Source: a virus
Direction: 5' to 3' (one strand)
DNA length: 31,035 bases
IMG/VR virus record: IMGVR_UViG_3300027810_000037
Span: 1 to 31,035 of that record
A program made the translations under genes and the position numbers. This document shows positions 2,140-17,896 of this stretch, piece after piece; within the stretch, counting starts at the first letter, position 1, and each line of letters starts with the position of its first letter. Below the pieces are notes generated by a model, which was not told the DNA's origin, ran no database searches, and saw only the letters and a list, made by a program, of their open reading frames with translations.

Positions 2140-2385
2140 TTAGTTTGACGCCTTGATAGGCATTACGTTGGTGTACTTCTTCAAGGTATCGGACAGGTTG
2201 TTGTCTGTCTGAACTACCATTTCCTCTGGTGGGAATTGCTTGAGGAAGTTAACGGCTGCGTTAAGTGTGCTGGCGGGGGCATCGACACGTTCACCAGACC
2301 TAGGGTCTACCTCACCGTTAGCCACCCTGTCACACAGGGATATAATTAGCAGACCTTTAAGATCTGCACTGGTCTTCTTCTTCAT
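2140..2385 (-). CDS. terS: Probable terminase small subunit (T7 gp18-like)
   Basis: This 81-residue protein sits immediately before the large terminase, the position of T7 gene 18 (89 aa). The middle segment, with charged GEVDPRSGERVDAP followed by ASTLNAAVNFLKQF, resembles the helical region of podoviral small terminases, where an 'A..LNAA..FLK' stretch is common. By family knowledge it would recognise phage DNA and regulate TerL. The ATG overlaps the TGA of the upstream holin gene (ATGA), and AAAGGA lies 8 nt upstream. The identification rests on position, size and this weak motif, because small terminases diverge strongly. Confidence 0.7.
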   Translation of the reverse strand: MKKKTSADLKGLLIISLCDRVANGEVDPRSGERVDAPASTLNAAVNFLKQFPPEEMVVQTDNNLSDTLKKYTNVMPIKASN

Positions 2386-2774
2386 TTCGTAAGTCCTTTA
2401 GCTTTCTCGAATGACCGTAGGCCACCAAGGCCCAGTAAACTCATTACGAGTGTTGTTAGTTCAGCGGATGCGATAGCAGGAAGTTCTGCGGGTAGTGCGA
2501 AGTAGGCGTTGATGAGGCCAGCAAAAGGTAAGATAAGGAACTGGTAACCTAGACCAATTGCACATATCCAACCGATAGCTGGACGCCAGCCAGCCACCCA
2601 CACAGAAGCATGTTTGGCAGATTCTATATTCGCCATTGCTTGTAAGTTGTGGGGTTTCTGAAGTGCTTCCGTCAGCTTGAGTCGAGCATTGGCCCTCTCT
2701 TCGTCTGACGTAAACAGATCATCAAGACCATCCATCACACTACCAGCAATCCCCGCTAGGGGGTTGATAGACAT
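2382..2774 (-). CDS. Holin of the three-transmembrane GTA/phage type
   Basis: This 130-residue inner-membrane protein probably forms the lysis hole. The first 50 residues are amphipathic (LDDLFTSDEERANARLKLTEAL). Next comes a GWRPAIGW signature at about 62-69, then hydrophobic segments at about 66-88 and 105-120, with a short basic tail. The N-terminal charged helix followed by WRP-x-x-GW is typical of the 'Holin_3TM' family of gene transfer agents and many marine podoviruses. It overlaps the small terminase by four bases (ATGA), a neighbourhood matching T7, where holin 17.5 precedes terminase gene 18. No separate endolysin gene is adjacent. Confidence 0.8.
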   Translation of the reverse strand: MSINPLAGIAGSVMDGLDDLFTSDEERANARLKLTEALQKPHNLQAMANIESAKHASVWVAGWRPAIGWICAIGLGYQFLILPFAGLINAYFALPAELPAIASAELTTLVMSLLGLGGLRSFEKAKGLTK

Positions 2775-4719: not shown

Positions 4720-5544
4720 TTATGTGTTGATGTTTAGGGTAGTTCCCGACATTGAGAACGTAGCACCTACGGGGCCTTGTGATCCTGTGCTGCCAGTAGA
4801 TCCAGTAGATCCTGTAGAACCTTGTGGGCCTGTAGCTCCTGTACCACCAGCAGAACCTGTAGGGCCTGTAGATCCTGTGTTTCCTGTATTACCTACAGGG
4901 CCTTGTGCGCCAGTTCCACCCTGTGCGCCCGTGGGGCCAGCGGGGCCTGTATCACCCTGTGGGCCAGTGGGGCCTTGTGATCCTTGAACTCCCTGTGATC
5001 CAGTAGTACCAGTATCGCCTTGTGGGCCAGTAGGGCCAGTGGCTCCTTGGACTCCATCATCTCCATCTCCACCAGCCGTACCTTGTGGGCCTTGTGAGCC
5101 TGTATCACCCTGTACGCCTTGTGCGCCTGTTGATCCAGTTCCTCCAGTGGGGCCTGTGTTACCAATGGGGCCTTGTGGGCCAGTATCACCAGTATCACCA
5201 ACTGAACCTGTTGGGCCAGTAGGGCCTGTTGGCCCAGTGTTTCCTAACGGGCCTTGAGGGCCAGTGTCGCCTTGAGATCCTTGAGGGCCAGCCGCCCCTG
5301 TAGCACCCGTTGTTCCTTGTGGGCCTGTGTTACCGATTGGGCCTGTTATACCATCTGCACCCTTCTCAGCCATAAGTTGCCAAACAGCAGCTTGAGCAGA
5401 AGGTACAGTACCAGCGGCTGAGTCTTGAAGGGCGACATATGTCGCACCTTGATATTCAACAGCATCGAAGGTTTCATAAGCAGTTGCAGCAGACCATTGG
5501 CCTTTAAATGCAATGCGTACCTTACCTATATTTAAAGTTGGCAT
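4720..5544 (-). CDS. Second collagen-like fibre protein with N-terminal carbohydrate-binding-like domain
   Basis: Residues 1-61 form a small domain with [20 protein letters not shown] and TYVALQ, typical of the CBM5/12-like modules found at phage fibre ends ('W-x-x-x-x-x-Y-x-x-x-D-x-V-x-Y-x-G-x-x-Y-x-A'). From residue 62 to 262 come 67 uninterrupted Gly-X-Y triplets rich in GPT, GPQ, GNT and GST. A 12-residue cap ([12 protein letters not shown]) ends the protein. Gly-X-Y stretches in phage fibres form collagen-type triple helices, so this is expected to be a rigid trimeric rod. The gene begins inside the stop of the previous fibre gene (TAATG). It is probably a fibre extension attached to the first fibre protein. 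No frameshift is seen. Confidence 0.8.
4759..5361 (-). repeat. Gly-X-Y (collagen-like) coding repeat, 67 triplets
   Basis: A 9-nt-based degenerate repeat encodes Gly-X-Y without interruption through residues 62-262 of the second fibre protein. On the + strand it appears as many near copies of ccttgtgggcc and cctgtagggcc. Such tracts change length readily by slippage or recombination. The same repeat type occurs at 5676-6206, providing homology between the two genes. The long open frames in other phases here are by-products of the 3-nt periodicity. Confidence 0.9.
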
Positions 5545-6836
5545 TAGATTGTTACCTCTAGTTCACCGTTTGAATTGATTGAGAAGTCTTGGTCTGCCGC
5601 ATCACCGTAGTATTCGATGGATAGCATTCCTGTTGTGGGGTTCATTGAGAAAGTACCGAAGGCTAGACCTAGTGCAGTCGGCCCCATAGCACCTATTGGG
5701 CCAGCAGAACCTGTAGGGCCTAAAGAACCTTGATCACCGTCAGGGCCTTGGTTACCTAAGTCGCCTTGAATACCTTGTGGGCCTATCGGGCCAGTAGGGC
5801 CTGTCGATCCTAGTGGGCCTTGAGAACCCGTAGGGCCTAATGATCCAGTGTCGCCTACAGGGCCTTGAGAACCTGTGTCACCTGTAGTTCCTTTAGTTCC
5901 TTGAGGGCCAGTAGGGCCTAACGGGCCATCATCACCTGTAGCACCTTGCGATCCTGTATCTCCAGTAGCACCAATTGATCCTGTGTTACCAGTTACCCCT
6001 TGGATACCCTGCAGTCCTATTGGGCCTATTGGGCCTGTAGTACCTTGTATTCCAGTGACACCTTGATCACCCACAGGGCCTGTATTGCCTATCACACCTT
6101 GAGGGCCTATTGGGCCTTCGGGGCCTATGACACCTTGAACACCTACAGGGCCTTGAGATCCTGAAGCACCAGCAGGGCCAGTTGCTCCGATAGGGCCTTG
6201 AGGGCCTTCAGATAAAGAGAAAGTAAGTAGACCTGTACCAGCGTTGTATGAGACAGAACCTTCTGCACCGTATGGCAGAGAAGTCATGGTGGTTGTAAGG
6301 GAATAAAGATCGTCACGAATATTAACAACGTCTGTATGTTTAATAACAACGTCTGTATGTTTAGATGTTATGTCTGCTGTTACCGCAGCTTGGTTAGGAA
6401 ATAACGAATCAGCATATGCTTTAGTTACGACATCCCCATCTGATACGGGATAAGCTACGTCTGATATTAACTTATTGTTAGCTGTGAATTTACCTGCCGC
6501 TACATCTTCAAAGATTCCCAATTTAGATTGGTCAATCGCTTCTTGCGCTAGGTTGTGTACTTGATCAAAGGCTGTATCTAAATCTTCCTCGGTAAGCTGA
6601 CCGGGAATAACAAAGTCTACCAACCGAATATCGGGAGAAGACTCTCTGAATATATACACCAAGTCTAAGTTTGATGTAGTTAATAATTGAATCTGAGTGT
6701 CGGAATACCAACTAAATGTTGTATCAAATACTCCGTTAACCTTAACCTTAACGTGAGCCTTGTCCAGATAAGAAAAGGGTATTGTGAATTGTGTCTGACC
6801 TGTATTGGCTATATATGACACATAAGAGTAAGCCAT
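5544..6836 (-). CDS. Tail fibre protein with T7-type N-terminal anchor and collagen-like shaft
   Basis: The 430-residue protein starts with a T7 gp17-type tail-attachment domain (about 1-145; [19 protein letters not shown] and a later [14 protein letters not shown]). Residues 153-190 hold a short linker containing a duplicated heptad [15 protein letters not shown] beta motif ([12 protein letters not shown]) follows, then 59 uninterrupted Gly-X-Y triplets at 211-387. A 43-residue C-terminal segment again contains an F-x-x-N-x-T-T-G-x-L-x-I beta motif. The N-terminus should bind the tail tube; the collagen-like part forms the shaft. No T7-like knob is present, so receptor contact may be made by the next two gene products. 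It lies just downstream of a terminator. Confidence 0.88.
5676..6206 (-). repeat. Gly-X-Y (collagen-like) coding repeat, 59 triplets
   Basis: Continuous Gly-X-Y coding covers residues 211-387 of the first fibre protein. Isoleucine is more frequent (GPI, GVI, GIQ) than in the second fibre protein's repeat (GPT, GNT, GST). The difference suggests the two tracts have diverged for some time rather than being a fresh duplication. Confidence 0.9.
6323..6363 (-). repeat. In-frame 21-nt tandem duplication in the tail fibre linker
   Basis: On the + strand the 20-nt unit taacaacgtctgtatgttta occurs at 6323-6342 and again at 6344-6363 with one base between, giving a 21-nt period. It encodes two seven-residue copies (KHTDVV plus I or N) in the linker of the first tail fibre protein. 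The two copies are identical over 20 nt, so the duplication is recent or maintained. The reading frame is unchanged. Confidence 0.9.
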
Positions 6837-6890: not shown

Positions 6891-9800
6891 TTAATCGTCT
6901 GAGGTTAGATCGGCTATCTTGAAGAGAACCTGATAAGGGGCAAGTCTACGAAGCTTTTCAGCACCGTCAGTCCTGTCAGGATCAGACAGCGCGTTTATGC
7001 CTGTACCTAAGTCAGTTGCTAATCCAAAGGCTGGGCCAAATAGAGCGCCCACAGCGTTGGTAGCTTGGAACCTAGAACCACCAGCACCAAGACCCGTGGC
7101 CTTTTCGATACCAGAAGCATAAGGAGACAACCAAGCTAGTGCGCCTGACCGATCAAGAACATCCCGAACCCACTGACCGTTAGTACGTTCTTTGACCTCA
7201 CCGTGGCGAATCATATCTTTAGTGATTACTACAAGACCGCCTAAAGCCAAGGCCATTGCCATAGAAGCCACAGCATCTGCATCCTTATAGTGGTGCATTC
7301 TCTGAGTCGCAGGGGCAATCATCTTGTTCATGATAACGAAGCCATAGGTTTGGAACTGCATCAACATCTTAGCCACAGGCCCGTCCATTAGTAGAGGTGT
7401 ATCACCAATTCCAGGAGTCATAATTCCACGGTCAGCAGCCTGTCTCATTGATCCGACAAAAGATGTATAAGCTTCACGGCCTTCCGAATACAATGCGTAT
7501 TCATCTTGCATGGCCTTACGAAGAATATCTAAGTCCTCGTCCTTGATCTCGCCTTCACTAAGTAGACGTTTGCCTTGGTCGTATTCCTTACGAGCGGCAA
7601 CATACTCTACTTCGTTACGGGTCTGCCATTTCTCTGCGTTAAAGCTTTTGACTCCACGATCATCAGATATTCCAAACTCTTTAGACATCTTCTTGAACTG
7701 GGCTAATTGATCAGGGCCTATACCTATCGTAGCCAGCTTAGCTCTAGTGAGGTCATCTAGCAGACGGGGGTTAGTAACTAGATCAACTAGCTTGTCCTGT
7801 TGAAAGATCATCGTCATAGCTTTCTGCTTCATGTTCCAAGCAGCTAGTCCAGACATGACGTTAACCTTTTCGTTTAGACCAGCAGTCAAACGATCTATGT
7901 TAGCCGTAACAACTTGCTTTGCAGAACCTGTAGCGCCAATACCGATACCTTGGTTAAAGTTATCCGTACCAGTTAGCTTTAGGTGACGCGCTTGATGCAG
8001 CAATCTTTCAGAAGCAACAGCTATCTTGTGGATTACATCATCAGGAGAGTTCTTTAAGATGTTAGAAGAAGCCCTAAAGTACTTACCAGCATAGACACCA
8101 AAGCCATTAGTCAACACCATGTTAGCGGCGTCAGTAAAGGATGTGACAATAAACTCAGGGCCAAACCGCGTGAAGTTATACTCACGGGCCTTACCTGTTA
8201 TCCAGAACATAGCAGCATCAGTATCATCAGGCATTCCTGCACGACCATAAAGTCGATCAAGTAAACCATCAATGTCTTTTAGTACCTGCTCCTTTTCAGT
8301 AGCTAGGTGTGAGTGCTTTTTGTTCTTACTTCTAAGAGCCTCTATATCGCGGTCATACTTATCCTCGATAATCTTCTTCTGGTCACTAAGATCTAATGAA
8401 GCATCTTTACCAAACACCTTCTTAATAGATAGTCGAGCAGACACTTCTTCCCACTGCTTATCTAGCACTTGATGTAGGTCATTCTTTAATATACCTAACT
8501 CATGTGCTTCTTTAGTTTGTTCGGGGGTCATACGAATACTTCGTGTTTTACTACGACCACCTTGAAACATAGCTTCAGTGAGAACACCTTGTGGAGACTT
8601 GTTGCTTTGCTGTAAGTTACTTACTAGGTCATCTACAGTTTCGCTCATGTTCTTAATAGAACCAGACTTACGCTGAATACGAGTAGCCTTTTGCTTCCAT
8701 TTAGCTGCCCTACGCCAATCACTCTTCATATCCTTATAAGCAGCACGGGCATCTTTATTAAGACCCCTTGCAGACTTTATAGCGGCCTGAGTTGCAGACA
8801 CAGCGACTTCTAAATCTGTGACCTTGGCTTGCTTCTTTTCTATCTTTATAGCGGCTTGTTTAATTGTGGCCCTAGCTTTGTTAGCAATCTGTAGGTACTT
8901 ACCAATCACTTGCTTGTCCACAGTTATGTTACGCCACATATCATCAATAGCTAAAGCATGGTCTATCTCAGCTTTTACAACAGCTTCTTGTGCCACCTTG
9001 TAAGCTTTAGGATCACCTTCTAACGGGCCTTTCTTAGCGGCTTTGTCTAACTTACGAACAGTAGCCGCAGCAGCATTAATAGCTTGTTGAGTTTTAATGG
9101 TTCCCTTATCTACAAAGGCAACTTGCTGAGCATACTCCTTCTCAAGTTTGGCCCTTAGTTCAGCCTGTGAAGCAACGAGTTCCTCTTTAGCACGGACGCG
9201 AGTAGCCTTGTCTAGTTCTATACGTTCATAGGTTGTTCTAACTAGATCTTTAGCAACTTTAATACTTAGGTTTTTAATCCTAGTAGTGCCTTGCCTAATA
9301 ATAGAGGCCGCTGCAACCATATCTTTACGGGCGACTAGTTCTTCCATATGGGCAACCCTAGCAGCTTCGTCTATCTCTGCTAGTTTAACCTCGTAGTTAT
9401 TACCTGCCCAATCTCTAAGGATCTCGCCCTTATAGTTTTGACCTTCTGCTTTAGTAATTACTCGATCTACGACCCCACCGAAATCGCCTTTAATCTGAAC
9501 ATCTTCCAGACCAAACTTAGCGAAGTCATCTAGGCTAATACCGTAGTCCTCTATAAACTCTTCCGTAGGGGAATCTTGGAAGATCTTAATAAAGAAGTCT
9601 TTAGCTTTAAACGCGTCCTCTTTTATGTTCTTACTATTCCATAACTGAGCCATCTTATAGTCATCACCCATACGCATCTTATCGGTGATCAAACCATTTT
9701 CTACCATCATGTCTTCTAGGTGACGGTTGGCATCGTTAATCTTTTTAGTCATATCGTCAGCAGCACTTTTAATAAGCTTTGCATTATCAGGCCCCCAACG

Positions 9801-11126
9801 AGTTTCAATCTTAGCTAGATCGTCAGCACTGGTATAACCATGAAGATTCTTTACAACTATCTCATTAAACTCACTAGGCTTTAGAAGTCCCATGTTAAAG
9901 GTTTCAGCCTGTCCAGTTACGCTCTGCGCCCAGTTAATTGGACGGGTCATGTCAGAGGACAGTTGTTGTGCTATACGGCCTTTACCCGTCATTGCCATGT
10001 TAAGGTTAGTAACAATGTTTTCAGACTGTAGAACAAGAGTGTCATACTCAGTCTTTAAAGCATTCTTAACTGACTCAGCACTTATCTCAGCCTTACCTTC
10101 AGCCGCTCCCTTGCTTACTCGACCACCAGTGTCCATAAGCTTTTGGGTAACACTACGGGCCTCTGCAAGTGTCCAGTTAAATGAGCGACCTATAGGTGTA
10201 GTCCTATCAATCCATCCCACTGCTTTATTAAGGGCATTAGCAACAACACCTCTATTACCATCCATTACTGAAGTGGTAGTGTCTGCAACTCTCATTGCAC
10301 CAGCAGAGTCATTCATAGGGCCAACGAAGTCATCACCCCCACCGCCAATAAACTCTGGATCATTAGACTTCAAAGGTAAAGGCCCAACAAAGTTTGGATC
10401 AGCCGCTTGAAAAACTGGAGCAGAATTTGTAGGCGTAGCTTCTGGAGCGTTCTTAAACGTAGGTACGTTAGACTTCATGCCTTTGTAACCACCAACAGCA
10501 CTCATAAGAGCGGCGCTGGCTAATACGTTTATCAAAGACTCGTCCATTGTTCTGAAGTCTTGCTGTTGGTGCAGAGCGATTTCCTGACCAGCTACCAACG
10601 CACCCGTCTTGAGCGCGTAGTTAGCAGCACTAGCCAAGGTTTTTCCTTTCTTAGCTTGTCCCAATACAGGAACTAAAGTAAGTACATCAAAAAAGGACAT
10701 GCCCATGCCCAACATGATTCCAGTACCATCACCGTTCATCATGTTGTCACGGTTCGTTTGCTCTTTACGAAACCTCTTAGTTCTTTGATTAAAGTGTTCA
10801 AGGTTGTCCACGTTGTCAAACAGACCTTGCCTGACAAAAGTGTCCATATCCTCCAGACCTTCTTTGTTTTCCGTATAGTGACGGTAAACATTAAACATAG
10901 GATCAGGCGCCCCATGAACAAGTTCACCAGAATACGCAAACGTGGAACCTATTAAGGTTTCTTGTTGATAAAAGGATAAAGCTGTTTCAAGAGTTCCCGG
11001 ACTTTCCTCGTCATCTACAGAACGTACATTGGTTCGGGGAGTAAACGTGGTTACTTCACTATCGACAGCTTGAACACGCGTAAACGCATTTTCCGCTGCC
11101 GTTGTTGATGAACGTATCAAGTCCAT
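6891..11126 (-). CDS. Large internal virion (ejection) protein, T7 gp16-like
   Basis: The product has 1411 residues from the ATG at 11126, chosen over an upstream GTG at 11135 because AGGTGA lies just before the ATG. T7 gp16 is about 1318. It belongs to the ejectosome that forms the channel carrying DNA through the envelope. The N-terminus lacks the transglycosylase domain that T7 gp16 carries: no E-S-x-x lytic motif is visible. Residues of roughly 600-900 are Lys/Ala/Glu-rich and probably long helices. The C-terminal part has the gp16-like features MLMQFQTYGFVIMNKMI and a hydrophobic ALALGGLVVIT segment (about 1286-1303). It follows the GH24-containing protein directly and precedes a terminator. 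Family assignment rests on size, order and the C-terminal pattern. Confidence 0.8.
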   Translation of the reverse strand: MDLIRSSTTAAENAFTRVQAVDSEVTTFTPRTNVRSVDDEESPGTLETALSFYQQETLIGSTFAYSGELVHGAPDPMFNVYRHYTENKEGLEDMDTFVRQGLFDNVDNLEHFNQRTKRFRKEQTNRDNMMNGDGTGIMLGMGMSFFDVLTLVPVLGQAKKGKTLASAANYALKTGALVAGQEIALHQQQDFRTMDESLINVLASAALMSAVGGYKGMKSNVPTFKNAPEATPTNSAPVFQAADPNFVGPLPLKSNDPEFIGGGGDDFVGPMNDSAGAMRVADTTTSVMDGNRGVVANALNKAVGWIDRTTPIGRSFNWTLAEARSVTQKLMDTGGRVSKGAAEGKAEISAESVKNALKTEYDTLVLQSENIVTNLNMAMTGKGRIAQQLSSDMTRPINWAQSVTGQAETFNMGLLKPSEFNEIVVKNLHGYTSADDLAKIETRWGPDNAKLIKSAADDMTKKINDANRHLEDMMVENGLITDKMRMGDDYKMAQLWNSKNIKEDAFKAKDFFIKIFQDSPTEEFIEDYGISLDDFAKFGLEDVQIKGDFGGVVDRVITKAEGQNYKGEILRDWAGNNYEVKLAEIDEAARVAHMEELVARKDMVAAASIIRQGTTRIKNLSIKVAKDLVRTTYERIELDKATRVRAKEELVASQAELRAKLEKEYAQQVAFVDKGTIKTQQAINAAAATVRKLDKAAKKGPLEGDPKAYKVAQEAVVKAEIDHALAIDDMWRNITVDKQVIGKYLQIANKARATIKQAAIKIEKKQAKVTDLEVAVSATQAAIKSARGLNKDARAAYKDMKSDWRRAAKWKQKATRIQRKSGSIKNMSETVDDLVSNLQQSNKSPQGVLTEAMFQGGRSKTRSIRMTPEQTKEAHELGILKNDLHQVLDKQWEEVSARLSIKKVFGKDASLDLSDQKKIIEDKYDRDIEALRSKNKKHSHLATEKEQVLKDIDGLLDRLYGRAGMPDDTDAAMFWITGKAREYNFTRFGPEFIVTSFTDAANMVLTNGFGVYAGKYFRASSNILKNSPDDVIHKIAVASERLLHQARHLKLTGTDNFNQGIGIGATGSAKQVVTANIDRLTAGLNEKVNVMSGLAAWNMKQKAMTMIFQQDKLVDLVTNPRLLDDLTRAKLATIGIGPDQLAQFKKMSKEFGISDDRGVKSFNAEKWQTRNEVEYVAARKEYDQGKRLLSEGEIKDEDLDILRKAMQDEYALYSEGREAYTSFVGSMRQAADRGIMTPGIGDTPLLMDGPVAKMLMQFQTYGFVIMNKMIAPATQRMHHYKDADAVASMAMALALGGLVVITKDMIRHGEVKERTNGQWVRDVLDRSGALAWLSPYASGIEKATGLGAGGSRFQATNAVGALFGPAFGLATDLGTGINALSDPDRTDGAEKLRRLAPYQVLFKIADLTSDD

Positions 11127-11140
11127 AAATATCACCTATA

Positions 11141-14100
11141 TTAAACTTTATCCTCATTACCCGCAGCCACTGAGGCCGCGTATTGAGCCGCATACTTTTC
11201 TGGTAACACGTTAGCCATGTAGGCTAGATAGGATGGAATACCGTGAATGCGATTGGCTCCAACAAATGTTAGGGCTTCTTCGTATCGGCGGTTGTAAAGG
11301 CCAAGCATTCGTGATCCGTTAGACTTGTAGAGTATTTCCTCCACAGCCTCTTCCATACGACCACCTTTCAAATGACCTACTAAGTTTTGACCGATTAGCT
11401 TTGGCGAGTTATACGCCATAGACACTAGGGCTAATCTTTGTTGATGGTTAAGGTCTACACCCTTTAAGCGGTTATCAATAACAGACTCGGCTTCATCTAC
11501 AGCAGCATCAAATAACTTACGGCCTTGGGCCTCAGTAATCTCAACCTTTCCAGAATGAACATCATCGAAGTAATTTTCGTTGACCTGCAGTGTCTTAATG
11601 AATAGATCCTTGTGACCCACAGAATCCATGTTGTAACCATAGCCTACAGTTCGGTAACCCTTACCATTAGGTGCGCTCTTAACACCATCCCAGTAAGCAC
11701 CTGACCGCCAAGCTTCACGCTCTGCAATCATTTCAAACCGTTGTGATGTGTACTCTGGATCTGATTCAGTTCCCATATGTTCTTTTACCCTTATGTAAGC
11801 ATCCTGTATAAACCAGGATGCGTTTTCCGCAGCATTAAAAATTCCAGAAGCCGTTATGTCAGGAACAAAACCAGCTTTTAATGGAACAGTTAAACCAACC
11901 GTATCGCTAACTTTTCCAGCTAACTGAAGTTCGTTCATTACGCCTTCTTGGAGTAACGCGCTTTGGTCTATAGCACTCTGAGATTTAGAATGTCTAAGCT
12001 GTTGGTTTAAATCCTCTTGCAAAGGATGATCACCATTACGCTTAGTCTTATCGAAGGCTGGCCCATGATAGCTACGAATAGTCATATCATTCTTATTATT
12101 ACCTTTGCTCATAGTCTTTAACTGAGCATCAGTGTAGTAAGTAGAAGGTCTATTGGTTTTAGCCATGTGAGGAAATACAGCTATGTTGTATCCCATAGCT
12201 TCTGCCGAACCATCTGCTATTGCAGCTTGTGACGTATTTGCAGGGTATACAGCAACAAACTGACTTCCTTCAACCATTGCAACTTCCGCTAAAGCCGCTT
12301 CATCAGTAGCCTTATCGCCTGTAAAAGTTACAATAGATTCCTTAGCTTTGGGAGCGTTACTGTCAGCTATGGCACTGGCTAAGCCTTGACCTAAACTAGC
12401 TGGCGCACCGCCTGTTTTCACAATAGTTCCTAAATCAAAAGCCACCCCTGTACCTAGGAACAACTTCTCCCTGCCAACACCACTATCGGTTGTTAGAGCG
12501 AACTGACCCGAACCATCACCCATAGCAACAAACCCTAAATTACCTTCTACCAGACCTTTAGCACTCCACGCTTGTACAGCGGTGTTCATGTTGTCTGTGG
12601 CATTAATAGGTTTAGTACTATCAAGAGGATTAGGTTGATTGTTTCCTTCTTGCATCTGAATAGAAACGTTACCGTCAATAACAGATAGAAGAGGGGGAAG
12701 AGGTTTAGCATCTTGCCTAAAGACCACCTTACTGCGGCCCTCATTGACAAGATTAGAACTAAGATTAGGAATCATCTGGTTCCAAACTTGGGCAGCTATT
12801 CCTTGAGCATCTAAACTACCACCGCTATTTCTGTCGGTTATAGTCATAGATGTATGAAGGGCTAGGAACTCTTTAGCAACAGCGCCGTTTGGACTAAAGA
12901 AAATATCATCCTCGTCTAGACCTAGTGCTTCGGCAATAGTTTCCATATGATCATTATCATCATACTGAACACCTATGAATGAACTGTTGTCCATTATAGT
13001 TGCGAACATTTCTCCCCTAGTTTCAACACCAAGTTCAAGAAACGTAGCAGCCTCAGTATCTTTAATAAGCTTCACATCTTGAAGTTGCGCCACTAGATCA
13101 AAGTCTTCACTGATAACAGATAGGTCTATGTAGCCTTCCTTAACGGCACTATAGAAAGCAGCAGCCTTATCGTTACCTTTAAGAATATCAGCAGATATAG
13201 CACTATCCACAGCATCCAACTTCTGGAGCATTAGGTAGCCACGCGTCCTTGATACAGGATCGTTTACTGAAGTTAACATACTAGATAAGGAATACTTTAC
13301 CTTGTCTGATACGATACCCGTTGAATCCTTATGATTAAGAATCATGCCCACTGCGTTAGTAGACATAGCTGCATAGTCTTCTTCACTCGCAGTCGTATCC
13401 GTATAGTTAGAAGCAGGGTTATTAGTAATGTAAGCTTGCTGATTACTTTTGAATTCAGCCAAGGGTAGAGAAGAGTCTGACCCCATTGTTGCTGCAGTCC
13501 ATTGTTCAGATAAAGCATTCGCTTCTGCGATTTTTTCAACCTTTGTACTAAGGGCTGAAATCATCTTGTTAGTTCCTACCTCGTCACCATAACGATCACT
13601 ATGCTGTATAAGTTCAAACTGTAGGGCTGCGACTTCTGCCTTACTGTCAGCATTAGGAGTCAATGAGTTAATCTCATTTATAAGAGAGGTAACATTTTGA
13701 TCAGCTTCTAGACCAGATGTTGCTTGATGTTCTTTATATCCAGCATCAAAAAGGTTTGCAGACATCTCAGGAAATTCTGCAGAGAAAGATACAAAACCAT
13801 CATCCTTCGGAATAACCTGCTCGTCAGATAGAAAACGGGCTAGTGGTTTAAACTTACCGTTTAATTTAGCCGAGTTAACATACATTTGTAATATCTTTGA
13901 AGAAGCTTCCGTAAATGTCAATGAAGGTGATATGCCTACTACTCTAGCAATGTCATCTGCAAAGTTATGCCCGTACATCGGCATATCTCTAGTAGCGACT
14001 TCAGTAGAAAGACCATTCATTAGATTAGTTCTATGTGCAGTTTCACGTTCTTCACTGAACTTTGAGATCAAAGGAACTACCTTTTGGTCAAAGTCATTTT

Positions 14101-14779
14101 TGATCTTCTGATCTAATATGTCATTACCCGTAGGGACAAAGTTAACCTCAAAGAAGTCTGTTGCAGTTTGAGCAAAACCTATTTCATTAGTTTCTACATT
14201 AAAGTCTCGAATAACATTTTCATCGAAAGCTTGAAATAGAGAGTTAACTTGTGTGTTAACAACACCTATATTTTCTACAACCTGTAAATTGTGAGCCTCT
14301 TGTTTAGCTTCTGCCTCTGCTTCTGCAAGATACCTATTTACATTTCTGGTAGTAGTATCTCGTTTAGCTTGGGCTATTCGTTCCTGTTTGGCAGCATACT
14401 GGGATAACTCTTGCTCCTTCTTGTTAACCTTTTTACGGTGCTGATACTTAGCCTCTGATCTAATCTCAGCTTTTACCCGATTGCGTTCTGCCTTAGACTC
14501 GCTGGCAACCCGAAGCTGCTCGGCACGTTCTACCTGTACAAGATCCGAATCAACCTTGGCTATAGCGCCAAAGAATCCACTCATTGCTTGTCCCATTTTA
14601 CCGATAGCATTAGCTTCGGCTAAACCACCACTCATAATAGATTGGCTGTTTTGGGTTGCTAGTTTTTGGTTTTGAATTTGTACGGTAGTGGTTGGCCCCG
14701 CGCTAGTCTGAACCTTGGAGTTACTGCGTCCAGATCGGCTAGTGCGTGAACCAGAACCGCCGTTAGATAATTCTGGCAT
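11141..14779 (-). CDS. Internal virion protein with C-terminal GH24 lysozyme domain (T7 gp15 position)
   Basis: The 1212-residue protein occupies the gp15 slot but is much longer than T7 gp15 (about 747). The first 60 residues are Ser/Gly/Gln-rich, followed by a charged coiled-coil region (about 85-155). Near the C-terminus a phage-lysozyme domain is visible: E1022, then GAYWD with D1031, then RTVGYGY with T1044. This matches the E-8-D-x-T triad of T4 lysozyme, with a longer loop between D and T. A helical lobe with LNHQQRLALVSMAYN and a basic NRRYEEAL end the domain at about residue 1170. It should locally cut peptidoglycan during DNA entry. The ATG is preceded by AGGGG. The gene lies between the gp14-like and gp16-like genes. 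Confidence 0.85.
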   Translation of the reverse strand: MPELSNGGSGSRTSRSGRSNSKVQTSAGPTTTVQIQNQKLATQNSQSIMSGGLAEANAIGKMGQAMSGFFGAIAKVDSDLVQVERAEQLRVASESKAERNRVKAEIRSEAKYQHRKKVNKKEQELSQYAAKQERIAQAKRDTTTRNVNRYLAEAEAEAKQEAHNLQVVENIGVVNTQVNSLFQAFDENVIRDFNVETNEIGFAQTATDFFEVNFVPTGNDILDQKIKNDFDQKVVPLISKFSEERETAHRTNLMNGLSTEVATRDMPMYGHNFADDIARVVGISPSLTFTEASSKILQMYVNSAKLNGKFKPLARFLSDEQVIPKDDGFVSFSAEFPEMSANLFDAGYKEHQATSGLEADQNVTSLINEINSLTPNADSKAEVAALQFELIQHSDRYGDEVGTNKMISALSTKVEKIAEANALSEQWTAATMGSDSSLPLAEFKSNQQAYITNNPASNYTDTTASEEDYAAMSTNAVGMILNHKDSTGIVSDKVKYSLSSMLTSVNDPVSRTRGYLMLQKLDAVDSAISADILKGNDKAAAFYSAVKEGYIDLSVISEDFDLVAQLQDVKLIKDTEAATFLELGVETRGEMFATIMDNSSFIGVQYDDNDHMETIAEALGLDEDDIFFSPNGAVAKEFLALHTSMTITDRNSGGSLDAQGIAAQVWNQMIPNLSSNLVNEGRSKVVFRQDAKPLPPLLSVIDGNVSIQMQEGNNQPNPLDSTKPINATDNMNTAVQAWSAKGLVEGNLGFVAMGDGSGQFALTTDSGVGREKLFLGTGVAFDLGTIVKTGGAPASLGQGLASAIADSNAPKAKESIVTFTGDKATDEAALAEVAMVEGSQFVAVYPANTSQAAIADGSAEAMGYNIAVFPHMAKTNRPSTYYTDAQLKTMSKGNNKNDMTIRSYHGPAFDKTKRNGDHPLQEDLNQQLRHSKSQSAIDQSALLQEGVMNELQLAGKVSDTVGLTVPLKAGFVPDITASGIFNAAENASWFIQDAYIRVKEHMGTESDPEYTSQRFEMIAEREAWRSGAYWDGVKSAPNGKGYRTVGYGYNMDSVGHKDLFIKTLQVNENYFDDVHSGKVEITEAQGRKLFDAAVDEAESVIDNRLKGVDLNHQQRLALVSMAYNSPKLIGQNLVGHLKGGRMEEAVEEILYKSNGSRMLGLYNRRYEEALTFVGANRIHGIPSYLAYMANVLPEKYAAQYAASVAAGNEDKV

Positions 14780-14793
14780 AATAATGGCCCCTA

Positions 14794-15363
14794 TTAATAT
14801 TGTGTATAATCTGATTGATCACGGTCAAGCCCCTGTAATTGGAGCTTGTAGTTTCTCTCGTTAGCTTTGTATGAGCCGTAAGAAGATCCTGCGTTTGTTA
14901 TAGAACCTATAGCGTTTGCATTTGCACCAGCTACCGCTGCCGCGCCTTGACTATAAGCTAGTGTGGTTTGATTGAGATAACCCATCTGACCTGCTCGTTT
15001 ATTAGCCTGTAAAGATGCTATCTGATTATCTCTGCTTTGGTTTGTACGAAGTACATCAATGCCTGTGTTATAAGAAGAGTCAAACATTAAAGCGTTATAA
15101 GAGGATACCGAAGCACCCTGCTCACCCATTAATACAGATAGCGACCCTAGTTCACGATTAGATGCACGAATACGGTCTGAAACCGCTGAGTCGTATAACT
15201 CATGTGATTCCTTTTGTAGTCGATTATTCTCTAGATAAGCTAGGTCCAGGTTTTTTTCTTCAGCAGCATAAGCGCGTTCAGTAGACGATTTAGCCACTGA
15301 TGCTTGTTGGGATGCCGCTGCAAGCCCTGCTACCGCAGAGGCGACAATTGCTGTGACGCACAT
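14794..15363 (-). CDS. Internal virion protein, T7 gp14-like
   Basis: The 189-residue protein matches T7 gp14 in size (196) and position, between tail tubular protein B and the large ejection proteins. The N-terminus MCVTAIVASAVAGLAAASQQ is a short hydrophobic Ala-rich segment like that of gp14, followed by a long Gln/Asn/Ala-rich helical stretch and a Gly/Ala/Asn-rich region (GAAAVAGANANAIGSITNAG). gp14 forms the outer-membrane pore of the ejectosome in T7. The gene starts three bases after the tubular B stop. Sequence similarity is only general, so the call leans on order and architecture. Confidence 0.78.
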   Translation of the reverse strand: MCVTAIVASAVAGLAAASQQASVAKSSTERAYAAEEKNLDLAYLENNRLQKESHELYDSAVSDRIRASNRELGSLSVLMGEQGASVSSYNALMFDSSYNTGIDVLRTNQSRDNQIASLQANKRAGQMGYLNQTTLAYSQGAAAVAGANANAIGSITNAGSSYGSYKANERNYKLQLQGLDRDQSDYTQY

Positions 15364-15365
15364 AA

Positions 15366-17297
15366 TTACTCCTGCCTTGTCATTTCGTTAAAGAACCCGA
15401 CCCACCGTGCGCTCGTAATAGTACAAGGCATGTATGAAGGATTAGTGATTTTAATATTTACTGTACTTCCATCAGATCTAATAGGTGCATCAAATACACC
15501 ACTTAAAAGTTCTGGAGTGGCTGTGATAAAATTACCTAGGCTTGTACCGTTAAACGTAAAAGTTCTAGCGGGTCTTTTATCAGGGGTTACTATCACTTGA
15601 AGAAACGCGGTGTCTTTGTAATCAAAGTACATACGCTTTAGCTGAAGCCTTCCAGTAGTAACTGTTGCTTGATTGTCACCCTCTCGTAGGTATTGCTTAG
15701 ACAACTCTACGGACATGTTGTAATTAAACCCTAGGTATATAGGCGTACCACTTTTATCACCACCTACAACAAAAGAATTACCACTAGATGATAGGGGAGT
15801 TATAACAGAACCTTGAGTTCCTATTGGTGCTACAACGCTATCGGCAACCGCAGACATTGTTGTCGAATCAACAGGGTAGGCACTGGTATAAGTAGTTGTG
15901 TTAGATGCTGAATCATAAGTCCCTACAATATACTGCAAGGCATCAAGCCTAAGTGGGTACTTAAAGTTGGTAGGCTTCTCAGCAGCGTTGAGAGACATTT
16001 TCTCAATCGATAGGATTCCGTTTCGTGATATTAAAATAAACACATCACCATCGGTTACAGTTAGATTGTGAAGTACAGATCCTGTACCAAACGTCCACTT
16101 ACCCCAAGCTGATTGTGCTTTATTTTCACCATCCCAATAAGTTTTATAGACATATATAGAGGAACGGTCAGTGCCACTTAACGCAAGAACAGTTCCAGTT
16201 ACAGTGTCTCCAACTAAGCAAGTTATCGGTGCGGGTATGTAGTCAGACGCATGTATTAAAACATCACTAGCAGTGTGACCTACAGATTTATCGCTATAGA
16301 AATATTCAAATAAAACGGCACTGCTACCACTACGAGAAGCAAAGTAAAGTTCATCTCTAAATCCAATAGGGCGACACAAAGGTTCCGAAGTGTATTGTGT
16401 TGCTACATCAATAGTTGTTGTTGTAGGAGTTACAGCAGGATCTCCAGATAGTTCAAACTGTGCTGATTCAGCAGAGCAGAATAAAGCTTTTCTGAATGCA
16501 ACCACATGTCGTAATTTATTTACCTGTGAACTAGAGGCTGTTCTACCAAAAGGATCACTATCAATAACCTGACCCTCAGTCTTGGGCCAGAAGTTTACAT
16601 AATCACCAGACGCTGAGAAGAAAACTGTTTCATCCGATACAATACTTAAACGGTTACGGAAGAATGTGATGTCAGATATACCTTTTCCTACAAAGTCAGG
16701 GGAAGGAATAATAGCTTCTGCTGCTGCTCCTACTGCCCCAGTGTCGGGACGCACACCCCACTCCAAATACATCTTAAATGTGAAAGTACCATCTGCTTCT
16801 CTTACTAACTGGTGAGGCATAGTGTCGTGATGAAACGTACCATCCTCATATATCAATACAGTTTTTAGTTTATTAGCAATAAACGTAACGTCACCCGTTG
16901 TTGCAAACGATAAGTCTTGCGAAGGGTTATCTGTAGATAGGTATCCTAAAGCTGTATCAGGCGCGGTCAGGTTATAAGCTGTTCCTGATGGATCAAATAT
17001 AGCTATGTTGCATCGACCACCGCCTCCACTATCATCAGTATCCTTGCCTATAACTATTAGATACTTCTCGTTAGTGTCGCGCTCATAGCTGTGGAAAGCA
17101 TGGTCAGTAGCATCTACTGGGTCAAGTTGTACATCAGTGACAAACTGAGTTCCCGGCCTTTTAGTGAAACCTCCAGACACAACTGAGAATAAAACATTCT
17201 CTGCTTCTTCAACCTGACCCGGTAGTCTTACGGTATCAGGCTGGCGGCTTACGCCTTGGTACATGGTTCTAAGGGTTTGCTCGACCAGTTTACCCAT
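15366..17297 (-). CDS. Tail tubular protein B (T7 gp12-like nozzle)
   Basis: The 643-residue protein begins with the family signature: MYQGVSRQPDTVRLPGQ at about 13-29, followed by EEAENVLFSVVSGGFTKRPGT. It forms the tail nozzle that contacts the fibre and the cell surface. The body is beta-rich, with FRNRLSIVSDETVFFSASGDY and SAQFELSGD segments typical of these proteins, where 'R-N-R-L-x-F/I' and 'S-x-S-G-D' are conserved. It is shorter than T7 gp12 (about 794), which fits simpler marine members. The gene is separated from tubular A by two bases, consistent with coordinated production. Confidence 0.92.
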   Translation of the reverse strand: MGKLVEQTLRTMYQGVSRQPDTVRLPGQVEEAENVLFSVVSGGFTKRPGTQFVTDVQLDPVDATDHAFHSYERDTNEKYLIVIGKDTDDSGGGGRCNIAIFDPSGTAYNLTAPDTALGYLSTDNPSQDLSFATTGDVTFIANKLKTVLIYEDGTFHHDTMPHQLVREADGTFTFKMYLEWGVRPDTGAVGAAAEAIIPSPDFVGKGISDITFFRNRLSIVSDETVFFSASGDYVNFWPKTEGQVIDSDPFGRTASSSQVNKLRHVVAFRKALFCSAESAQFELSGDPAVTPTTTTIDVATQYTSEPLCRPIGFRDELYFASRSGSSAVLFEYFYSDKSVGHTASDVLIHASDYIPAPITCLVGDTVTGTVLALSGTDRSSIYVYKTYWDGENKAQSAWGKWTFGTGSVLHNLTVTDGDVFILISRNGILSIEKMSLNAAEKPTNFKYPLRLDALQYIVGTYDSASNTTTYTSAYPVDSTTMSAVADSVVAPIGTQGSVITPLSSSGNSFVVGGDKSGTPIYLGFNYNMSVELSKQYLREGDNQATVTTGRLQLKRMYFDYKDTAFLQVIVTPDKRPARTFTFNGTSLGNFITATPELLSGVFDAPIRSDGSTVNIKITNPSYMPCTITSARWVGFFNEMTRQE

Positions 17298-17299
17298 GA

Positions 17300-17896
17300 T
17301 TATCTCCCGTAAAGTGAGTGGTTACGGCCTACAACGTAGCGGCAAAATGCACTATCAGTTAAGGCGTTAGAATCGTCAGCTTCTGCTTCGGCATCCATGA
17401 GAGAAGCGTAGGCTTCTTGCTCTGCACGAACAGCAAACTGGTCAGCCGCAACAGAACCCAGTTCGGATTCTTGGAATCGTCTGGAGGCTTTAGCGGTTAT
17501 GTAGAGTTGTAGTTCTGGGGTTAGATCTGCTATGTCTCGTTCCCATACAATGTCTACGGAAAGGGAAGCAGGAAATATGAATGTGTGTTTAACGATGTTA
17601 TAAAGATGTGGTTGGTTTAGGTATTTACGGACGGTAACGTGGGTAGATTTGTCTACACCTACTGTATCAATTCGTAAAACATCACCTGATAAGGGAATAG
17701 TCCCATCGGTGGTGATAGCCATAGTGTAATCACGTTCATGGTTACATAGCCAACCTTTGGCCTGTACCTCGCGGGACACTCGGTCAAGAATTCGTTCGGC
17801 TGATTCTGCGTCAGGCAGACCAGAGCTTAAAGATGCGACTGGGTCTTCGCCAATAGACTCAAGAATCTGATTGACTGCATCAAGTTTAGTTAACAT
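17300..17896 (-). CDS. Tail tubular protein A (T7 gp11-like gatekeeper)
   Basis: The 198 residues equal the usual length (T7 gp11, 196). Family features are visible: LDAVNQILESIGEDPV at the N-terminus, ERILDRVSREVQAKGWLCN with the conserved GW-x-x-N, then IPLSGDVLRID, and a helical C-terminus rich in Ala and Glu. The protein forms the ring joining portal and nozzle. It is the first gene after the capsid terminator, so its transcription depends on read-through or on an unseen promoter. Confidence 0.93.
   Translation of the reverse strand: MLTKLDAVNQILESIGEDPVASLSSGLPDAESAERILDRVSREVQAKGWLCNHERDYTMAITTDGTIPLSGDVLRIDTVGVDKSTHVTVRKYLNQPHLYNIVKHTFIFPASLSVDIVWERDIADLTPELQLYITAKASRRFQESELGSVAADQFAVRAEQEAYASLMDAEAEADDSNALTDSAFCRYVVGRNHSLYGR

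Follow-up and report, generated by a model that had tools for sequence, protein, structure and literature searches.

The window (the whole 31,035-nucleotide stretch of DNA analysed, a 31-kb piece of a virus record, from a T7-like phage of marine origin) carries on its minus strand, in this order, the genes for the portal, scaffold, capsid, tail tube, nozzle, gp14-like protein, GH24 protein, gp16-like protein, tail fibre, holin, and terminase, which is the same gene order as in T7. The initial annotation had placed the muralytic domain of this module in a 1212-aa protein at the gp15 position rather than in the 1411-aa gp16-like protein, and both open reading frames were found where it had located them. 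The features of the module are as follows.

17300–17896, minus strand: gp11-like tail tube protein (Pfam Tube, 9.4e-32; phrog_446, 8e-46)
15366–17297, minus strand: gp12-like nozzle protein (Pfam Phage_nozzle, 1.7e-141)
14794–15363, minus strand: gp14-like internal virion protein (Pfam T7_gp14, PF24072, 1.1e-8)
11141–14779, minus strand: gp15-position ejection protein, a predicted tunnel protein with a predicted C-terminal lysozyme (1212 aa; ORF between the gp14-like and gp16-like genes)
12761–14473, minus strand: helical body of the gp15-like protein, approximately residues 103–673, strongly divergent (DSSP of the model)
11276–11716, minus strand: predicted GH24 lysozyme domain, residues 1022–1168 (PF00959, 8e-12)
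11714–11716, 11687–11689, and 11648–11650, minus strand: triad codons of E1022, D1031, and T1044, respectively
6891–11126, minus strand: gp16-like ejection protein without a detectable transglycosylase domain (1411 aa from ATG; phrog_342, phrog_16310)
10485–10829, minus strand: N-terminal segment of the gp16-like protein, with a weak profile match to the part of gp16 relatives that follows the SLT domain
5544–6836, minus strand: gp17-like tail fibre with collagen-like repeats (Pfam Phage_T7_tail, 1.2e-21, and Collagen)
2382–2774, minus strand: holin, adjoining the terminase gene (PF11351, 2.5e-10; phrog_3427, 3.1e-27)

The gp16-like open reading frame spans 6891–11135 and encodes 1414 aa from a GTG at 11135 or 1411 aa from the ATG at 11126, from which its relatives align. 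No endolysin gene was recognised beside the holin gene. The nozzle protein (643 aa) is shorter than usual, its homologue in the 44.6-kb relative G001 having 745 aa, and its residues 154–639 match positions 302–790 of the 794 in the profile. In addition, positions 4720–6836 encode two adjoining collagen-like proteins of 430 and 274 aa, the first of which has the T7 tail fibre N-terminal domain.

The GH24 domain and the body of the 1212-aa protein

Residues 1022–1168 of the 1212-aa protein matched Phage_lysozyme (PF00959) in Pfam with a score of 46 bits, twice the curated cut-off of 22.3 bits. The residues E1022, D1031, and T1044, which the initial annotation had named as a GH24 triad near the C-terminus, are present as described, and are identical in all of the 11 aligned sequences, the window counted among them. 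Six of the eight related records searched gave one GH24 match each, inside the gene at the gp15 position; the stretches searched in the remaining two, which gave no match, stop short of the gene end where the domain lies. Because the triad is invariant in the 11 sequences and a single GH24 domain lies inside this gene in six related records, chance is not a reasonable source of the observation. These results confirm that the 1212-aa protein carries a predicted GH24 lysozyme domain with its catalytic triad.

The catalytic triad of T4 lysozyme consists of E11, D20, and T26. The spacing between Glu and Asp is equal in T4 lysozyme and the window domain, whereas that between Asp and Thr is 6 in T4 lysozyme and 13 in the window domain. 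The larger spacing corresponds to an enlarged loop, and T1044 lies within a T-V-G-Y-G motif, which marks the catalytic Thr in GH24 enzymes. In a fold search with the domain, the top PDB matches were GH24 muramidases, with target TM-scores of 0.67–0.71 but a Foldseek E value of only ~0.01, from a modest model. Among GenBank phages, the best match was to the lysozyme of Bacillus phage B103, which is of the phi29 type (33% identity, 74% query coverage).

The enlarged spacing relative to T4 lysozyme could also be read as a sign that the domain is catalytically inactive and is used for peptidoglycan binding or as a structural element. The invariance of the triad argues against this reading, as does the conservation of the domain, which ranks with the best-conserved regions of the protein (82–95% identity, compared with mostly 20–45% in the body, in the relatives L004 and L006); we therefore regard an inactive domain as very unlikely.

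An AlphaFold model of 1199 residues of the 1212-aa protein, of modest confidence (pLDDT 59), is mostly helical to approximately residue 670; beyond this come a part rich in strands, a linker modelled with low confidence, and the lysozyme domain. The long alignments obtained for it in BFVD were to internal virion proteins of Xylella phage Cota and JG068 and to the 854-aa 'Lysozyme' of LKA1, with E values of 1e-4 and TM-scores below 0.25. Sequence similarity of the body to T7 gp15 or SP6 gp36 was not found with the family profile, a PHROGs scan of the protein assigned no family, and a PDB sequence search with the family profiles of both the gp15-position and the gp16-like protein gave nothing useful. 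Since no significant match to T7 gp15 was obtained with the family profile, in PHROGs, or among PDB sequences, the protein is named here by its gp15 position, between the gp14-like and gp16-like genes, and is a putative rather than a proven gp15 homologue.

Between window positions 11141–14779 and L006:6327–9995, dS is saturated (>3) over codons 101–900 and is 0.74 in the GH24 region, whereas the values for the nozzle and terminase genes are 0.105 and 0.21, respectively. The body of the gp15-like gene, and to a lesser degree gp16, looks as if it has been exchanged by recombination between otherwise close phages.

The gp16-like protein and its lack of a detectable transglycosylase

The large protein matched phrog_342, the family that it shares with T7 gp16, with an E value of 4.7e-42, and phrog_16310 with 2.2e-103. 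When its family profile was aligned by hhalign with gp16 of T7, SP6, K1E, and TL-2011b, an E value of 3e-16 over 454 columns was obtained. On these profile comparisons, the large protein is homologous to the T7/SP6-type gp16 across its C-terminal ~450 residues. Among GenBank phages, tblastn with this protein found only TL-2011b and similar enterobacterial phages.

No SLT domain (PF01464) was detected by Pfam in the 1411- or 1414-aa form of the protein, nor at E ≤ 1 in six-frame searches covering the window and eight related records, whereas T7 gp16, used as a positive control with the same library, gave 1.7e-31 over residues 15–127. These results agree with the initial annotation, according to which no transglycosylase is visible in this protein; profile searches of both proteins thus left its central proposal intact, with GH24 found in the 1212-aa protein and SLT not found in the 1411-aa protein. 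The model of the N-terminal 701 residues (pLDDT 41) is too poor for a fold search or for excluding a cryptic fold.

In the N-terminal part, residues 103–217 gave a weak profile match (i-E 2.4e-4), and hhalign paired them with T7 residues ~233–424 at a probability of 42%. Because these weaker matches fall after the transglycosylase domain of T7, they suggest that the gp16-like protein begins downstream of that domain. A similar picture is seen with phrog_342, where the matches of SP6 gp37 and TL-2011b gp16 start only at profile position 203–206 and that of T7 gp16 at position 4. The N-terminal SLT domain is absent from gp16 of SP6 and TL-2011b as well, and so does not define the gp16 family as a whole.

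Muralytic domains in known phages

T7 shares the gp16 family (phrog_342) with the window but shows the opposite arrangement, with an SLT domain at the N-terminus of gp16, while in gp15 no muralytic domain was found. The statement of the initial annotation that enzyme type, host protein, and end have all changed relative to T7 is therefore borne out: SLT is replaced by GH24, gp16 by the gp15-position protein, and the N-terminus by the C-terminus. Its implication that the arrangement is unusual does not hold. In the Molineuxvirinae, SP6 gp36 and K1E gp35 occupy the gp15 position and contain a C-terminal PF00959 match (6.6e-10 and 3.9e-10, respectively), and no SLT domain was found in their partners, SP6 gp37 and K1E gp36, as in the window. 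Relatives of SP6 gp36 along most of its length were found in 153 phage records. However, the bodies of the SP6 and K1E proteins have no detectable sequence similarity to the window protein. The K1E and window GH24 domains are only distantly similar (~25% identity over 130 aa).

In phiKMV, a GH24 match at 31116–31430 falls in the C-terminal part of gp36 (28866–31562), and no SLT domain was detected in the genome by six-frame search. The gp15 position and the C-terminal GH24 are shared between the window protein and phiKMV gp36, which carries the KMV36C lysozyme domain and is accompanied by gp37, but the two have little sequence similarity. A 'Lysozyme' of LKA1, a homologue of the phiKMV protein, was among the best fold matches of the window protein mentioned above. 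The phiKMV gp36 protein gave no Pfam match by hmmscan, yet scored 29.6 bits in the six-frame search, a match that is trusted because the literature agrees with it. This missed domain warns that the absence of a Pfam match in other gp15-position proteins is no proof of absence.

The same arrangement has been described previously. According to a review (PMC5380687), SP6 gp36 and phiKMV gp36 are both lysozymes associated with the virion, and the phiKMV lysozyme is C-terminal, thermostable, and of measured activity. Swanson et al. (2022; PMC8954989) state that the lysozyme activity located on gp16 in T7 is contained in some gp15-like homologues, such as those of K1E and K1-5, and conclude that swapping can bring the hydrolase domain to the gp15 homologue. 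The layout of the window is thus already known, from SP6, K1E, K1-5, and phiKMV.

Of all phages surveyed, the Escherichia phage TL-2011b gave, with its gp16, the strongest match to the window gp16 family profile (1.3e-28). As in the window, this gp16 lacks SLT and the muralytic domain is encoded by the gene before it. This domain is, however, an internal SLT transglycosylase (residues 263–342 of the gp15-position protein) and not a C-terminal GH24. Relocation of the muralytic domain therefore recurs, as TL-2011b has SLT in the gp15 position. RHEph01, like T7, has SLT at the start of gp16. Neither GH24 nor SLT was found in the ejection genes of several other surveyed phages, which may reflect sensitivity. 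SIO1, which the initial annotation had named for comparison, gave no GH24 or SLT match and was set aside; it is not the closest relative to compare, because of this result and because the 44.6-kb relative encodes a T7-type RNA polymerase. Where recognised in the surveyed ejection proteins, the muralytic domain lies either at the start of gp16 (T7 and RHEph01) or in the gp15-position protein (SP6, K1E, phiKMV, TL-2011b, and the window clade), and never in both. Since the GH24 domains are distant from each other, separate captures of them are possible.

Relatives of the window and predicted role of the lysozyme

Close relatives of the 1212-aa protein were found neither in GenBank phages by tblastn nor in IMG/VR with short patterns, and the gp16-like and nozzle genes served instead to find the related records. 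The relative G001 contains the same module together with a T7-type RNA polymerase in two open reading frames, an integrase, and an HTH regulator. The two adjoining polymerase frames (L027:1717–3036 and L027:3048–4328) match phrog_414 positions 7–381 and 386–816, respectively, as would be expected of a split gene or a frameshift. The tyrosine integrase (L025:253–1494) and the HTH regulator (L025:1851–2180) suggest a temperate life style for this T7-like relative. Another relative, L044, lies on the 43-kb MAG contig JAPYOO010000011.1, which was binned as Bermanella sp.; this gives a weak hint of a gammaproteobacterial host, weak because the binning of phage contigs is unreliable. In L044 the open frame holding GH24 is only 396 aa, and the gp15-like gene seems to be interrupted.

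We consider it highly probable that the window is a fragment of a T7-like podovirus with the ejection layout of SP6 and phiKMV, in which the 1212-aa protein is the gp15 equivalent with a C-terminal GH24 domain and the 1411-aa protein is the gp16 equivalent without a recognisable transglycosylase. This reading draws directly on the domain content, the conservation of the triad, the gene order, the gp16 homology, and the layout common to SP6, K1E, and phiKMV.

In another reading, this clade encodes no dedicated endolysin, and its only GH24 domain, carried by the ejection protein, would act in final lysis as well as in DNA entry. As infection ends, the wall would then be degraded either by the full protein or by the free domain, released by proteolysis or made from an internal start. 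Consistent with this, a holin is present, the only GH24 domain in G001 is the one in the gp15-position protein, SLT and Amidase_2 are absent, and a scan of its uncharacterised open reading frames of ~70 aa or more gave no match to a known wall hydrolase. Moreover, a Met just before the GH24 domain is kept in all 11 sequences. An AAGG, a possible Shine-Dalgarno sequence, lies ~11 nt upstream of this Met, but this distance exceeds that at the native starts looked at and the codons account for the motif, so that an internal translation start for a free lysozyme was set aside as a weak lead only. Against it, phiKMV and SP6, which share the layout, each encode a separate lysin (gp45 and gp46, respectively); PMC3594737 cites a paper whose title calls that of phiKMV a SAR endolysin. 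In addition, an endolysin that escaped recognition is likely to lie among the uncharacterised open reading frames (e.g., L025:4873–5298) or outside the contig. Because such frames remain and both phages keep a separate lysin, a dual role is judged unlikely.

Under the reading of the window as a T7-like fragment with the SP6/phiKMV ejection layout, the 1212-aa protein would, by analogy with SP6, phiKMV, and T7, be packaged in the virion core and ejected through the tail after adsorption. Its helical body would then form a periplasmic tunnel, a role that is likely for this protein from its position and predicted architecture, and the GH24 lysozyme, if catalytic as in SP6 and phiKMV and as the transglycosylase is in T7, would cut the peptidoglycan locally and thereby let the tunnel cross the wall. 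For the C-terminal part of the gp16-like protein, the predicted role is in DNA uptake, at the inner membrane and in the cytoplasm.

The modest new points are, as far as these searches reach, a clade that appears to be without close relatives in GenBank phages and a putative GH24 domain very distant from that of SP6. Overall, an uncultured, sequence-divergent clade is added to the T7-like phages with the entry enzyme on the tunnel protein, and the distribution of the muralytic domain, either on gp16 or on the gp15-position protein, fits a mosaic view of ejection proteins.
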